64,000 nucleotides of DNA from Bryopsis sp. KO-2023 (lineage: Eukaryota > Chlorophyta > Ulvophyceae > Bryopsidales > Bryopsidaceae), in NCBI GenBank assembly GCA_030272585.1, contig BSYQ01000005.1, forward strand, positions 3,224,001 to 3,288,000, given 5' to 3'. The notes under the pieces were generated by a model. The model made no database searches, was not told the DNA's origin, and saw nothing but the letters and a program-made list of their open reading frames with translations. A program made the translations under genes and the position numbers. Below, piece after piece: positions 43,682 to 48,429 of this stretch (position 1 is the first letter of the stretch; each line of letters starts with the position of its first letter).

Positions 43682-43849
43682 AAATTTACGGTTCCGCAGG
43701 AAGCGCGGTTCCTTTTGCGGAGTTTTAGGGTGGGACGATTGAAAGGACTGATTGCTGAGGTGGCCTGTAGGGGTATCTTTTGGAGTTTTGGATCTCAGTA
43801 GTTTGGGTTCTTAAGCTCACTCAGTTGGTCTTTCTTTACTCGGTTTTTC
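43682..43849 (+). repeat. Split direct repeat A1
   Basis: Left terminal repeat of the retrotransposon, 168 bp, the same sequence as A2 at 48031-48198 by eye. It begins AAATTTACGGTTCCGCAGG and ends CTCGGTTTTTC. Confidence 0.93.
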
Positions 43850-43952
43850 TGCTTTATCTTTACCCTCACGGGCACCTGAAGTGCACCGTTTCGAACCATC
43901 CCTGGCTCAGCCAGCGTGGGGCTTGTCCCTGTATTGTTAAGTCCTTTGTTTG

Positions 43953-44765
43953 ATGCCGACTGTCGAGGAAAAGATTGCTGCGTTACAAGCACAGCTGGAT
44001 TTGTTGAGAGCGTCAGGAGAGCAGAGTTCCCCACAGTCTCGTTTGGACGGGATTCTGAAGAAATTTGCTGGGTCGGCGGAGATCGCTGAGAGTTTGGAGG
44101 AGCTGTGTCTTGCTCCAGGCAGTGACCCGCCACGGGCGGCGCTAAATCCAGTAGAGGTACCAGCAGCGGCCATCTTTGGCCATTATTTCGACGTGTTGGA
44201 CACAGCAGCGGGTGCTCGCGTGGGTGCTGCTCTTGGTGTGCGTTCTGGGTTCTTTGCTGAGTTTAGTTCGTGGGCGCCTGTCGTGGCGTTTGCTTTTGAT
44301 TGGTTTGTCCTTTTTGCTCAATTTGCGGCGCACTCGGATCAAGGGACTGCAGTGAAGAAGGCTTTGGAACCTTTTGTTTCTTCGTTTGCGCCAATTTTGG
44401 AGTTGGCAGCCAATACGTTGGAAGTACACCGTTTGCACGCAGCACACGTGAACACGCCTTTGTCGGAGGCCTTTCGGGCGGTGTCCACGTCGGTAAAATT
44501 AGCAGCGTCGTCAGGGCGTTTTGTCGGAGACACTGCGCAGGCTACGTTGAAGTCCCTGAGGGACCAACAGCAGAAGGCAGTTTTTAAAAGGCAAGCAGAG
44601 GGCTCGTCGCGGAGCGGCGGGTTCAGAGGAGATTCCTCAGGAGGTTTTTCTGGCGGTCGTTTTGGTGGTCGTCAGTTTTCGCAGCGAGGCAGAGGTCGAG
44701 CGAACCCCAACCTTCAGCCTTTGGGTAATAGAGGTGGAGCTCATGGGCAGAACCAAGGCTTCTAA
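43953..44765 (+). CDS. Retrotransposon ORF1, Gag-like nucleic-acid-binding protein
   Basis: 270 codons from ATG 43953. The N-terminus is a short amphipathic helix (EEKIAALQAQLDLLRASG), a likely coiled coil. The middle is alpha-helical and Ala/Phe-rich. The last 50 or so residues are Gly/Arg/Ser-rich with RGG-like units (GGFRGDSSGGFSGGRFGGRQ), typical of RNA-binding tails, and there is no zinc knuckle. By position it corresponds to the Gag-like ORF1 of Ngaro elements, which would coat element RNA. It ends 62 bp before the RT frame and overlaps the start of the recombinase frame. Confidence 0.8.
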   Translation: MPTVEEKIAALQAQLDLLRASGEQSSPQSRLDGILKKFAGSAEIAESLEELCLAPGSDPPRAALNPVEVPAAAIFGHYFDVLDTAAGARVGAALGVRSGFFAEFSSWAPVVAFAFDWFVLFAQFAAHSDQGTAVKKALEPFVSSFAPILELAANTLEVHRLHAAHVNTPLSEAFRAVSTSVKLAASSGRFVGDTAQATLKSLRDQQQKAVFKRQAEGSSRSGGFRGDSSGGFSGGRFGGRQFSQRGRGRANPNLQPLGNRGGAHGQNQGF

Positions 44766-47700
44766 GGCAGCGCTGGAGATTGCTCAGGAATTGAGAAAGT
44801 TGCGCGTGCAGGAGGATAAGCCAGGAGATGATGGTGCAGGGGACACCCACTCGGAAAGTGCACTCTCGGAATTTTCAGTTCAACCGGATTCGGGGAGCTC
44901 TCAAGGCGTGGCGCGAGATAGGAGCCAATCCGACGGTACTATCGTGGCTCAATCAGGGAGTGGTTCCCAATTGGATTTCGTCCGAGCCGCCGAAGTTCCA
45001 TCATGGCAACTCGCGTATTCCAGTAGCCTTGAAAGGCGCTTGGAACGAGTTGAAGGAGCGGTATTTACGGTGCGGGGCGATGAGGGAAGCGCGTTGCAAG
45101 GATTACGTGTCCCGCGCTTTCTTGGTCGAAAAGAAGGTAGACGACGTCGTGGCCGGCCACAGGTTGTGCGTCGATCTTCGGTTTGTGAACTCCTTTTGCC
45201 GCAAATTATCGGTAAAATACGAGACCCTCCGTTCTTTTCTCCCTCGTCTGCAACCGCAGGATTGGATCGTGGCCTGGGATTTGGAGGACGCTTACTTCAA
45301 CATCAGGTTTCGGGAGTCGGAGGTCCGCTTCTTTTGTGCGACCATCGAGGGAGTGACTTACGAGTTCCCAGCTCTGATGTTCGGGTTCGTGAATGCCCCA
45401 GCGATTTTCACGAAGGTGATGAGGGCAGTGGTTTCCTTTCTCAGAGCGCCAAGGATGTCGAGGTGGAGATGTCCGACCTCCCCAGGATTGAGGAGGTATT
45501 GGATGAGCAACCCAGCGCCAACGATATCTCCCTATTTGGACGACTTTGCGGGAGCAATGAGCAGCGAGCGGGCAGCGAACGAGTTGGGGGTGTTGATTCG
45601 AGGCCTACTGATGGATTTACAGTTGCGCTGGAAGGAGAAAAAGTGCCAATGGAAGGCGGTGCAACAATTTCGGCATTTGGGCATGCTAATCGATACGGCG
45701 CAGGGCCTGGTGATTGCGCCGCCGGAGAAGGTTGCTCGGATCCACAGGGAGGCGCGATTACTAAAGGAAATGAGGAAGGTTCCCAAGCGCAGGTTGGCGA
45801 GGTTTGCGGGTTGGTGTCAGAGCCTGGGCCTGGCTATTCCGTTGGCGAGATACCATCTCAGGAGTCTATTCTGGGATATGACCCTGGGGGCTACTTGGGC
45901 GTCGTTGATCGAGCTATCGTCGGAGACGAAGGAGGATCTGGCGGTGTGGAGTGTGATGAACGAGCGTCACACATCGTCGGTTTATTGGAAGGTCCCAGCG
46001 ACGATCAGTCTCTTTACAGATGCGTCGATGAGTGGTTGGGGGTCCCACCTGGTGGATCCATTGGCAAAGGAAAGCGTTCCTGTCCTGGCCAGGGGCATTT
46101 GGTCAAGCGACGAGAAAAGCGAGCATATAAATATGCTCGAGTTGAGGGCTGTGGAGGCAGCGATTCGCGCATTCCATGGGACCTTGGAGAACCGGACTGT
46201 GCGCTTGGTAACCGATTCTCAGGTGGTGTTATCGATCTTGTTGAAGATGACGACGAGGAGCCCGAGGTTGATGGGTCCATTACGGTTGTTGTACCGCATT
46301 CTGGAGTCGCGAAAGATTGCGTTGCAGCCAGAGTGGATCCCCTCGAAGGAGAATGTGTGGGCGGACAAACTGTCGAGAGCGAATCTTTCGGAGGAGGATT
46401 ATTTGGTAAATCGGAAGTGGTTGGATCAGTTCAGCCGATGGTGGGGACCGTTCGATCTCGACAGGTTTGCGTCTCAATGGAGCAGAGTGGTGTTCCGTTA
46501 CAATGCGGAATGGGGCGATCCGATGGCGGAGAGCGAGGCGTTCAGTGCCGTGGATTGGAGTCAGGGACATGCGTGGTGCCATCCACCGATTCGTCTGCTT
46601 TCGCAGTTGGGGGACCTGCTGCGCTCCTTACCTCAAGCAACTGCCACCGTTTTGATGCCCCTGTGGCCGTCGGCACCTTGGTTTCGTCCGATGTTCGAGT
46701 GCTTTCAGGAGTATGTGGTGGTTCCAGCGTGGGCGAATCCGCTGTTGCCTCCATTGGGCAGAGAGGGCGAACCATTTCCCCAAGGCCGTTGGAATGTCAT
46801 GGTGGGCGTGATTCACAAGACGAAGTCTGGCTTCAGGAGCTATGGGGTGAATTGGAGGGATGCGTCGATTGGACCGACGAGACGCTACCTCAATTTGGTG
46901 AATTGTCGAACGTCGAACGAAGAGAGCTGTTTGGCGACTTAGCATTATCGAATAGCCCAGGAGGTCGGAGATCTATTTGGATGCGTTTTCGTAAATGGCT
47001 CGGTTTCGCTAGGTCGAGGGGTTGGTGCTGTGTGCCGGCTCGCTCTGTTCGCATTTACGCCTATATCCTTTTTCTTCGAAATGAAGGGAGAGTGGCGCCG
47101 AGGTCCATGAGCAACTACCTTTCTGCAATTAGTACGGTTCACCGTTGGCTCGGATCCGCATTCTCTGCACATGACTCCTTGACGGCTCGGCTCAAGCAAG
47201 CTTGGCTTATTAAGGTCCCTTCGGAAGCTAAGGAACCACAGCCCAGGGACTTTCCCATGGACTGGTTGTGGTCGTGGGCCAAGAAGGGTTTGGTTGGGAG
47301 CGATGCAGAAAGCATTCGTCCCTATTTGATTTGTATTTTGGATGTGATATTCTTTTCGCGCGCTGATTCAAGTTTTGATACTCGGGTCGGCGACTATCAG
47401 TGGGATTCTTCGTCAGTAACTTTTACAGAACGGCGTTTCAAGGCGAAGGGTCAGACCTCGGCCACTTTGAGGGTTCGGAGATTCGACTGTCGTGGTTTTG
47501 TCGAACTGGTCGCAGTGTTGGATCGCTATGAAGGATTTCGAGTGCGTGACTGGGACGGCCATGACGACAAATCGGAGCAGTTTTGGTTTTTACCTGGTGA
47601 TCCGAGTGTTCCAACAGCGGGGAGCGTAGCGCGTTGGTTTACACGGGTGATGAAGGATCATGGTTCTGACCATACTCATCACTCGGTTCGTCGCACTGGG

Positions 47701-47901
47701 GTTTCCAGCGCCTTCAATCTACTTGTGCCGTTACCGAAGCTCTGTGATTGGGGGGGTTGGTCGCCTTCTTCTCAGGCGATCTTTCAGTATATCAATCGGC
47801 AGCGCCAGCCTTCCCCCTGGGATTTTCGTGTTTTTGGATGGATGGTGCTTCCTGCGGAACAGCTTCGGCGTGAGTTGGGGGCGGTGTTTTCGCCAGTTTA
47901 A
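44743..47901 (+). CDS. Retrotransposon tyrosine recombinase, in a 1,052-codon frame overlapping the RT
   Basis: The frame is open from before ATG 44743 to TAA at 47899-47901, crossing the entire RT gene in another phase. The recognisable domain is in the last 310 or so codons: an N-terminal DNA-binding part (SMSNYLSAISTVHRWLG, SLTARLKQAWLIK) and a catalytic part with FFSRADSS (Arg about 873), RRFKAKGQ (Lys), THHSVRRTG (H-x-x-R, about 980-983), GGWSP and the nucleophile in IFQYI (Tyr about 1016). It would insert the circular DNA copy by site-specific recombination. Where translation begins is unclear: ATG 44743 gives MGRTKASKAALEIAQELRKL, plausible as protein, but reinitiation or frameshifting near the RT end is equally possible. 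Confidence 0.85.
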   Translation: MGRTKASKAALEIAQELRKLRVQEDKPGDDGAGDTHSESALSEFSVQPDSGSSQGVARDRSQSDGTIVAQSGSGSQLDFVRAAEVPSWQLAYSSSLERRLERVEGAVFTVRGDEGSALQGLRVPRFLGRKEGRRRRGRPQVVRRSSVCELLLPQIIGKIRDPPFFSPSSATAGLDRGLGFGGRLLQHQVSGVGGPLLLCDHRGSDLRVPSSDVRVRECPSDFHEGDEGSGFLSQSAKDVEVEMSDLPRIEEVLDEQPSANDISLFGRLCGSNEQRAGSERVGGVDSRPTDGFTVALEGEKVPMEGGATISAFGHANRYGAGPGDCAAGEGCSDPQGGAITKGNEEGSQAQVGEVCGLVSEPGPGYSVGEIPSQESILGYDPGGYLGVVDRAIVGDEGGSGGVECDERASHIVGLLEGPSDDQSLYRCVDEWLGVPPGGSIGKGKRSCPGQGHLVKRREKRAYKYARVEGCGGSDSRIPWDLGEPDCALGNRFSGGVIDLVEDDDEEPEVDGSITVVVPHSGVAKDCVAARVDPLEGECVGGQTVESESFGGGLFGKSEVVGSVQPMVGTVRSRQVCVSMEQSGVPLQCGMGRSDGGERGVQCRGLESGTCVVPSTDSSAFAVGGPAALLTSSNCHRFDAPVAVGTLVSSDVRVLSGVCGGSSVGESAVASIGQRGRTISPRPLECHGGRDSQDEVWLQELWGELEGCVDWTDETLPQFGELSNVERRELFGDLALSNSPGGRRSIWMRFRKWLGFARSRGWCCVPARSVRIYAYILFLRNEGRVAPRSMSNYLSAISTVHRWLGSAFSAHDSLTARLKQAWLIKVPSEAKEPQPRDFPMDWLWSWAKKGLVGSDAESIRPYLICILDVIFFSRADSSFDTRVGDYQWDSSSVTFTERRFKAKGQTSATLRVRRFDCRGFVELVAVLDRYEGFRVRDWDGHDDKSEQFWFLPGDPSVPTAGSVARWFTRVMKDHGSDHTHHSVRRTGVSSAFNLLVPLPKLCDWGGWSPSSQAIFQYINRQRQPSPWDFRVFGWMVLPAEQLRRELGAVFSPV
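44828..46942 (+). CDS. Retrotransposon reverse transcriptase - RNase H
   Basis: 704 aa from ATG 44828. The polymerase has LCVDLRFVN, WDLEDAYFNI (catalytic Asp about 151), FGFVNAPAIFTKVM and YLDD (about 236-239). The RNase H domain follows with FTDASMSGWG (Asp about 398), MLELRAVEAAI (Glu about 438), VTDSQ (Asp about 463) and NVWADKLSR. The C-terminal part (DLDRFAS..., HAWCHPPIRLL, VVPAWANPLLPP) resembles the region after RNase H in DIRS/Ngaro elements. It copies element RNA to DNA. There is no integrase domain, in keeping with integration by the tyrosine recombinase. The frame has no breaks and the catalytic residues are intact. Confidence 0.95.
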   Translation: MMVQGTPTRKVHSRNFQFNRIRGALKAWREIGANPTVLSWLNQGVVPNWISSEPPKFHHGNSRIPVALKGAWNELKERYLRCGAMREARCKDYVSRAFLVEKKVDDVVAGHRLCVDLRFVNSFCRKLSVKYETLRSFLPRLQPQDWIVAWDLEDAYFNIRFRESEVRFFCATIEGVTYEFPALMFGFVNAPAIFTKVMRAVVSFLRAPRMSRWRCPTSPGLRRYWMSNPAPTISPYLDDFAGAMSSERAANELGVLIRGLLMDLQLRWKEKKCQWKAVQQFRHLGMLIDTAQGLVIAPPEKVARIHREARLLKEMRKVPKRRLARFAGWCQSLGLAIPLARYHLRSLFWDMTLGATWASLIELSSETKEDLAVWSVMNERHTSSVYWKVPATISLFTDASMSGWGSHLVDPLAKESVPVLARGIWSSDEKSEHINMLELRAVEAAIRAFHGTLENRTVRLVTDSQVVLSILLKMTTRSPRLMGPLRLLYRILESRKIALQPEWIPSKENVWADKLSRANLSEEDYLVNRKWLDQFSRWWGPFDLDRFASQWSRVVFRYNAEWGDPMAESEAFSAVDWSQGHAWCHPPIRLLSQLGDLLRSLPQATATVLMPLWPSAPWFRPMFECFQEYVVVPAWANPLLPPLGREGEPFPQGRWNVMVGVIHKTKSGFRSYGVNWRDASIGPTRRYLNLVNCRTSNEESCLAT

Positions 47902-47936
47902 CGAACGAACGTTCTATTTTTAGGTGCTTTGTTTTT

Positions 47937-48032
47937 TTGGCACTATTTGTTTGAAGGGTTAAACGAGGGTTACATTTCTGTAAAGGTTTTTTCGATCTCT
48001 GGGTGTGGAAGAAAACGTAGCAGTCGAAGGAA
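47937..48032 (+). repeat. Split direct repeat B1
   Basis: Internal repeat of the retrotransposon, 96 bp, the same as B2 at 48334-48429 by eye. It follows the recombinase stop by 35 bp and overlaps the start of A2 by two bases. Confidence 0.92.
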
Positions 48033-48198
48033 ATTTACGGTTCCGCAGGAAGCGCGGTTCCTTTTGCGGAGTTTTAGGGTGGGACGATTGAAAGGACTGA
48101 TTGCTGAGGTGGCCTGTAGGGGTATCTTTTGGAGTTTTGGATCTCAGTAGTTTGGGTTCTTAAGCTCACTCAGTTGGTCTTTCTTTACTCGGTTTTTC
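48031..48198 (+). repeat. Split direct repeat A2
   Basis: Internal copy of the left terminal repeat, 168 bp, fused to B1. The B1-A2 junction mirrors the expected circle junction. Confidence 0.93.
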
Positions 48199-48333
48199 AC
48201 CCATCCCGGAACTGTGTTCTTCCCTCCCTTTTTTGGAGATTATTTTTTGGTGGGATTTGGGAGTTTTTATAGAGCTAATAGGGACATTTTTGATTTACTT
48301 TTGTGGTGCTTGGGATGCACAATTTGGCAGAAA

Positions 48334-48429
48334 TTGGCACTATTTGTTTGAAGGGTTAAACGAGGGTTACATTTCTGTAAAGGTTTTTTCGATCTCTGGG
48401 TGTGGAAGAAAACGTAGCAGTCGAAGGAA
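48334..48429 (+). repeat. Split direct repeat B2 (right end of the element)
   Basis: Right terminal copy of B1, beginning TTGGCACTATTTG and ending AGTCGAAGGAA. A 135-bp linker separates it from A2. The host sequence resumes with CAAGCTGTTCG. Confidence 0.92.

Follow-up and report, generated by a model that had tools for sequence, protein, structure and literature searches.

A probably PAT-like tyrosine-recombinase retrotransposon of Bryopsis whose recombinase frame stays free of stops across the reverse transcriptase gene

A 64,000-nt stretch of the Bryopsis sp. KO-2023 genome (contig BSYQ01000005.1, forward-strand positions 3,224,001 to 3,288,000; termed the window) carries a retrotransposon of 4,746 nt that encodes a reverse transcriptase (RT) and a tyrosine recombinase (YR). 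It is very probably a recently active, autonomous-looking PAT-like element. The open reading frame (ORF) of the recombinase crosses the entire RT gene without a single stop codon, while the peptide encoded in this overlap appears to be weakly constrained at most. Absence of stops in the overlap is common to five families of YR elements in this genome, the window's included. Coordinates below are those of the window, and all features are on the plus strand.

43682..43683, AA dinucleotide of the host target, just outside the 5′ junction, placed by the junctions of other copies and by empty sites
43684..48429, whole element, 4,746 nt, ATTT...GGAA, delimited by matches in the genome, repeats, other copies' junctions and empty sites
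43684..43849, split direct repeat A1, 166 nt, identical to A2
43953..44765, ORF1, 270 amino acids, Gag-like by position, with an RGG-rich tail and no zinc knuckle
44743..47901, ORF3 (YR frame), 1,052 amino acids from the ATG at 44743; the frame is open from 44560
44828..46942, ORF2, 704 amino acids, with RT, RNase H and a weak Dam-like domain
44828..46942, overlap corridor, in which the ORF3 frame has 0 stops, expected 30.5 ± 3.9
45533..45544, RT active-site motif YLDD, ORF2 residues 236–239
46415..46939, weak Dam-like methyltransferase domain, motif HPPI (NPPW in two other families)
46945..47901, tyrosine recombinase domain, from catalytic residues and predicted fold
47359, 47440, 47680, 47689, 47758 and 47788, first bases of the catalytic codons R, K, H, R, W and Y
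47937..48032, split direct repeat B1, 96 nt, identical to B2
48033..48198, split direct repeat A2, 166 nt
48334..48429, split direct repeat B2, 96 nt

The expectation for the overlap comes from 2,000 synonymous shuffles of ORF2, which preserve the protein and its codon usage; no shuffle had fewer than 19 stops in the ORF3 frame, and the minimum in a separate run was 16. The remaining frame that overlaps ORF2 has 39 stops versus 41.9 expected. The stop contexts T/AA, T/AG and T/GA each occur 0 times (expected 8.1, 9.3 and 13.2), whereas the non-stop contexts T/AC, T/AT, T/GC, T/GG and T/GT occur 3, 5, 14, 6 and 8 times (expected 4.6, 6.7, 10.7, 5.3 and 9.1). Stops are found in the same phase outside the overlap, where both counts are somewhat low: 8 versus 13.2 ± 2.4 in ORF1, and 17 versus 23.3 ± 3.1 in the part that encodes only the YR (YR-only). 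In this report L012–L047 denote copies of the window element's family, and L057, L058, L059 and L060 four other families. The ORF3 frame of L057 has 0 stops versus 14.1 expected and the overlapping part of L058 has 0 versus 7.7; in the 3′ part of the overlap, L059 has 0 versus 8.5 and L060 0 versus 4.1 (5 of 2,000 shuffles reach 0). Diverged copies of the window family show the same property. The frame is without stops in 11 of 12 copies, several of which are close relatives, where random synonymous placement of the changes would give about 6–11; the degenerate copy L047 has one stop versus 6.9 expected. In L058, positions 1468–2534, which precede the first ORF3 ATG, have 12 stops in the ORF3 phase versus 20.7 ± 3.2 expected, possibly a relic of a former full overlap.

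It is improbable that the recombinase is made from an internal start or a spliced RNA and that codon or dinucleotide bias has left the frame open incidentally. Introns are present in some YR elements of other hosts, and YR frames are shorter in L058 and other families. Long overlaps are common in this genome: of 126 YR matches, 30 sit in frames that stay open for 1,000 residues or more, and the window's family accounts for 10 of these (five of the 30 have a stop counted within the match, which in L059 is the terminal stop); frame lengths in other families are 940 (5 rows), 770 (8 rows) and about 700–750. Against a bias, shuffles that keep codon usage still yield 30 stops, and frames of equal phase outside the overlap contain stops. 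Dinucleotide bias was rejected as the origin of the open frame, as only the stop-forming contexts are absent and other T/A or T/G contexts are present.

A more serious alternative, though still an unlikely one, is that the overlapped N-terminus of ORF3 has a genuine protein function, the need for which keeps the frame open. Several observations weigh in its favour and against a corridor of little protein function: the frame is strongly kept open, with its ATG start in all 12 copies checked; four-fold sites change more slowly in the overlap than in the YR-only part in 10 of 10 copies; and in some copies (L014, L047) the replacements tend slightly towards mild ones. In diverged segments the four-fold-site divergence is 0.23–0.35 in the overlap and 0.30–0.43 in the YR-only part, a ratio of 0.65–0.92. 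The slowdown is significant in two copies that are mutual relatives, L044 and L045 (Fisher P 0.013 and 0.035), and non-significant in eight (P 0.15–0.61); stop avoidance by itself removes part of the four-fold changes in the overlap. The slowdown thus leaves room for weak amino acid constraint. On the other hand, four-fold changes mostly replace an ORF3 residue. As these sites still diverge at 0.65–0.92 of the outside rate, the overlap peptide is best taken as free or weakly constrained, with stops excluded. Replacement counts in ORF3 were also within 2 s.d. of a stop-free null in six of six copies tested (141 versus 145.8 ± 3.7; 159 versus 161.6 ± 3.5; 111 versus 113.9 ± 2.8; 99 versus 94.3 ± 2.9; 146 versus 144.0 ± 4.0; 105 versus 105.7 ± 3.3). 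The power of this comparison is low, because third positions of ORF2 are first positions of ORF3 and nearly all changes silent in ORF2 replace an ORF3 residue. ORF3 taken whole matches no Pfam family, and its composition varies by family, being proline-rich in L057. We infer from these sequence comparisons that selection preserves the translatability of the corridor and acts little on the residues it encodes. In the parts of the literature on long pol/YR overlaps reached by a non-exhaustive search, there was no test of stop avoidance versus amino acid constraint.

The layout at the end of ORF1 suggests how the recombinase might be expressed. The ATG at 44743, present in all 12 copies checked, lies 20 nt before the ORF1 stop codon and is the likely YR translation start. 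In L057 the ORF1 stop and the ORF3 start share bases in the sequence ATGA, and the ORF2 ATG comes 13 nt further on; the ORF3 frame of L057 opens only one codon before the start, and therefore there is almost no room for a frameshift fusion. In L058 it is the ORF2 start that overlaps the ORF1 stop, as TGATG. Stop-start overlaps are described as termination-reinitiation sites elsewhere, e.g. in influenza B segment 7 (PMC3035654). On balance we lean towards a mechanism in which ribosomes that finish ORF1 would begin again at one of two nearby ATGs, that of ORF3 next to the ORF1 stop or that of ORF2 shortly after it. Those on ORF3 would traverse the entire RT gene, about 700 codons, in the other frame, and the frame would have to stay stop-free because of this passage. 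A corridor kept translatable makes sense if YR synthesis begins upstream, and its product of roughly 700 residues would be a spacer ahead of the recombinase, at most weakly constrained. More tentatively, with chances a little below even, the recombinase may be produced solely as the last, C-terminal third of a protein begun at the end of gag, the first ~700 residues being selected mainly for lack of stops, and the choice of restart at the ORF1 stop may set the ratio of RT to recombinase.

The initial annotation had proposed an intact, young tyrosine-recombinase retrotransposon, and the domains, repeats, identical copies and empty sites agree with this. ORF1, ORF2 and the YR frame are all open in the window copy, as had been stated. 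ORF2 matches RVT_1 (E 4.9e-11) and RT_RNaseH (E 8.6e-6), both above the Pfam cut-offs, and contains the YLDD motif, so that the assignment of RT and RNase H holds. ORF1 is Gag-like only by its position; the ORF has no Pfam family at cut-off and no Pfam zinc family, and as it contains a single Cys it has no CCHC knuckle. The recombinase residues R, K, HxxR, W and Y, also predicted earlier, are invariant in seven of seven aligned sequences from five families. A weak Pfam Phage_integrase match was found in L057. The predicted YR fold is Cre/Xer-like in the rank lists of structure comparison; this assignment is based on the rank lists and the catalytic residues and not on superposition, as the whole-chain rmsd (root mean square deviation) to Cre is about 16 Å, perhaps from a different placement of the lobes in the model.

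The repeat layout A1...B1A2B2 was likewise borne out. Base-by-base alignment of the window copy shows 0 differences between A1 and A2 (166/166 positions) and between B1 and B2 (96/96). The span first given, 43682..48429, is right at the 3′ end and begins 2 nt too early. The AA at 43682–43683 extends the repeat match, since in the window copy it equals by coincidence the AA of the B1-A2 junction. Other copies have AA, TA, AT, AC, TG or TT there, and because of their junctions and four empty sites these two bases are host target and the element starts at 43684. The B1-A2 junction reads GGAA/ATTT, i.e. the two element ends joined, which was the circle junction predicted. The ends are direct repeats, and no end-to-end pair is found among the 25 of 31 inverted pairs listed; a DIRS1-type inverted-repeat layout was thus rejected. 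Tandem repeats are absent at 42.5–49.5 kb, and scans of the window with Rfam (gathering scores) and for tRNAs gave no hits.

Insertion is exact to the base, and the target site is neither duplicated nor shortened. Thirteen joined flank pairs were compared with the genome, and among the 40 of 386 candidates scored, junction-spanning paralogues were found for five of the pairs. In four (L019, L017, L013, L012) the paralogue is contiguous over the joined site, with 0 bases gained or lost; in the fifth, L020, a CA repeat makes the site ambiguous. As the insert is ATTT...GGAA without target duplication, joining its ends gives exactly the B1-A2 junction. The inserts at two of these exact sites, L017 and L019, are solo A-B2 remnants, each about 400 nt long. 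The genome yielded five remnants of this type, and they are best read as products of A1 x A2 recombination; solo AB repeats are known from Ngaro elements of Cafeteria (PMC8547959).

Element ends are uniform, with GGAA at 19 of 19 distinct 3′ junctions and ATTT at 18 distinct 5′ junctions, the matches having been seeded with the element ends GGA and ATTT with mismatches allowed. On the host side of the 18 5′ junctions, position −2 is A in 15 (P 1.8e-6) and −4 is A in 12 (P 7.5e-4), these P values being uncorrected for the number of positions examined. Position −3 is G in 9, T in 7, A in 2 and C in 0, and −1 shows no clear preference (A 7, T 7, C 3, G 1). An identical 3-bp target, as modelled for DIRS1, was rejected, as position −1 is free. 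Following the established split-repeat model, element RNA would be reverse transcribed, the internal B1-A2 unit would template closure of a DNA circle with the junction GGAA/ATTT, and the YR would recombine this junction with a loosely matching target that has A at −2.

The initial annotation left the class as Ngaro/PAT-like. This can be narrowed to PAT-like. Two features make it more likely than Ngaro-like by literature descriptions: a weak Dam-like domain after RNase H, and a YR frame that extends over the entire RT ORF. A methyltransferase (MT) domain and a pol/YR overlap are described as traits of DIRS and PAT elements and as not usual in Ngaro (PMC3266345, PMC4157794). There is a small chance that the element is Ngaro-like, with no true methyltransferase and an unrelated RT extension after RNase H. 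The Dam matches indeed fall short of the Pfam cut-off, with E 0.053 in the window piece, 0.0038 in L057 ORF2 and no match in L058; the predicted structure of the region is a poor model; and split repeats of the A1-B1A2B2 type are common to Ngaro (PMC8547959, PMC3783388). Lack of a long ORF overlap, the usual Ngaro trait, is however not seen here, where the ORF3 frame covers ORF2 completely. A search of viral contigs with an RT alignment gave 61 pattern matches, none of which was confirmed.

Compared by described features, the closest known systems include Toc3-like PAT elements, which have split direct repeats, RT-RNase H with a methyltransferase-like domain, a YR and a Gag without zinc knuckle (PMC4157794); the methyltransferase motif of the window element differs in being degenerate. 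DIRS1 of Dictyostelium and DIRS1-like elements share the YR, RT-RNase H-MT (the MT here being the weak Dam-like domain) and the absence of target-site duplication, and many have a long pol/YR overlap with the catalytic YR in the non-overlapping 3′ part (PMC3266345, PMC5633606). DIRS1 differs in its inverted terminal repeats and internal complementary regions, whereas the repeats here are direct, and in its modelled identical 3-bp target, where here only −2 is strongly shared (15/18). The Ngaro elements of Cafeteria burkhardae have the A1-[ORFs]-B1A2B2 layout (PMC8547959), while Ngaro elements in general are described without a methyltransferase domain and usually without ORF overlap (PMC3266345). 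VIPER/TATE elements of kinetoplastids have A1...B1A2B2 in some copies and three ORFs with a YR (PMC6681497), but are described without an MT domain (PMC4157794). Earlier publications already describe the class, its repeats, the lack of target duplication, long pol/YR overlaps and solo AB units (PMC3266345, PMC6681497, PMC4157794, PMC8547959, PMC3783388). Added here are base-exact empty sites, a target rule looser than the 3-bp identity modelled for DIRS1, an overlap kept stop-free with at most weak amino acid constraint, and recent mosaic lineages.

The genome searched (91.09 Mb, 28 contigs) has at least 59 matches to the element, five of them essentially full length at 99–100%, and chance repeats were rejected on these grounds. 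Three copies, the window's and two more, are at unrelated loci with different flanks and show 0 differences over the regions compared. An assembly artefact is scarcely credible, as every copy has its own flanks and other copies have empty paralogous sites. Of 14 copies examined, the window's included, A1 equals A2 in 11 of 12 measurable and B1 equals B2 in 11 of 13. Repeat variants differ between copies (e.g. B is one base shorter in L012 and L013), and identity within a copy is predicted if both repeats are copied from one template in each round. Two copies are older: in L025, A has 7 mismatches plus 6 gaps and B has 2 of each, and in L028, B has 5 mismatches plus 4 gaps. Pooled over 20 related copies, some without a region, so that counts are not independent, 168 of 206 substitutions in ORF1 and 988 of 1,270 in the YR-only part are at third positions, as expected under purifying selection. 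Other YR-retrotransposon families are present at about 25–38% amino acid identity; in several, open copies recur with frames of the same length, which suggests a genome rich in recently active YR elements.

Young copies are also mosaics when compared with the window copy in 200-nt intervals. L014 and L016 are ≤3% diverged to about 45.68 kb, then 8.5–18.5% per interval to about 47.68 kb, and thereafter 5% in one interval and about 1–3% beyond. The group L015/L036/L024/L026/L027 switches near 44.7 kb and has a low patch at 45.08–45.28 kb, and L023 and L046 are at 0.5–4% from the first core interval with data to 46.88 kb and at up to 15% beyond. Young copies thus have near-identical ends around cores diverged by about 10% or more. 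Recombination between lineages, e.g. by template switching in a shared particle, explains the pattern best, and the events are recent because several mosaics have identical A1 and A2. Strong constraint on the ends in place of recombination is quite improbable. Repeats and untranslated regions are functional, and end intervals differ by ≤about 5% in all copies except L025 (9.5%, one interval). Against this, the window copy and L015 differ at 2 of 790 positions in ORF1 and at 99 of 956 in the YR-only part (80 at third positions); ORF1 can diverge, as in L047 (106/696); and the abrupt changes near 44.7 kb and 45.7 kb are common to copies at different loci. It should be pointed out that, of 14 copies with data, 13 diverge by 0–2% and L047 by 4.5% in the interval 45082–45281 of the RT gene, with flanking intervals in the L015 group differing by 7.5–9%. 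This may be a recombination patch or may reflect extra constraint such as an RNA element.

Five copies contain an inserted element of 462–468 nt with inverted ends AGAGATAGGACTT, 85–99% alike and at different positions:

L015, insert after window position 43964
L024, insert after window position 47243
L025, insert after window position 44732
L026, insert after window position 45503
L028, insert after window position 46476

It has 9-nt target duplications in three copies, shares 11 nt in L015, and looks like a family of miniature inverted-repeat transposable elements. In L016, a 1,025-nt insert follows window position 44368; its short ends are inverted repeats, ATACTATGGATC / ATACTGTGGATC, and it is flanked by an 8-nt target duplication. 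Elsewhere in the genome, 5S rRNA matches are clustered on C5 (6.92–7.04 Mb), C9 (5.58–5.68 Mb) and C13 (74–114 kb), many neighbours on C5 and C9 being about 11–11.5 kb apart; the clusters are perhaps linked to the ribosomal DNA unit.

YR retrotransposons are a known but uncommon kind of mobile element and are little studied; how they integrate and express their genes is understood mainly from models. Bryopsis sp. KO-2023 has several families with open copies, exact junctions, empty sites, solo remnants and recent mosaics in one genome, and because of this the models are directly testable here. An overlapping frame that is kept open yet hardly conserved would be an unusual form of gene overlap. 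If the proposed expression is correct, it would represent a translation corridor, i.e. a long overlapping frame held open with little or no protein function, and a caution that open overlapping frames need not mean functional proteins.

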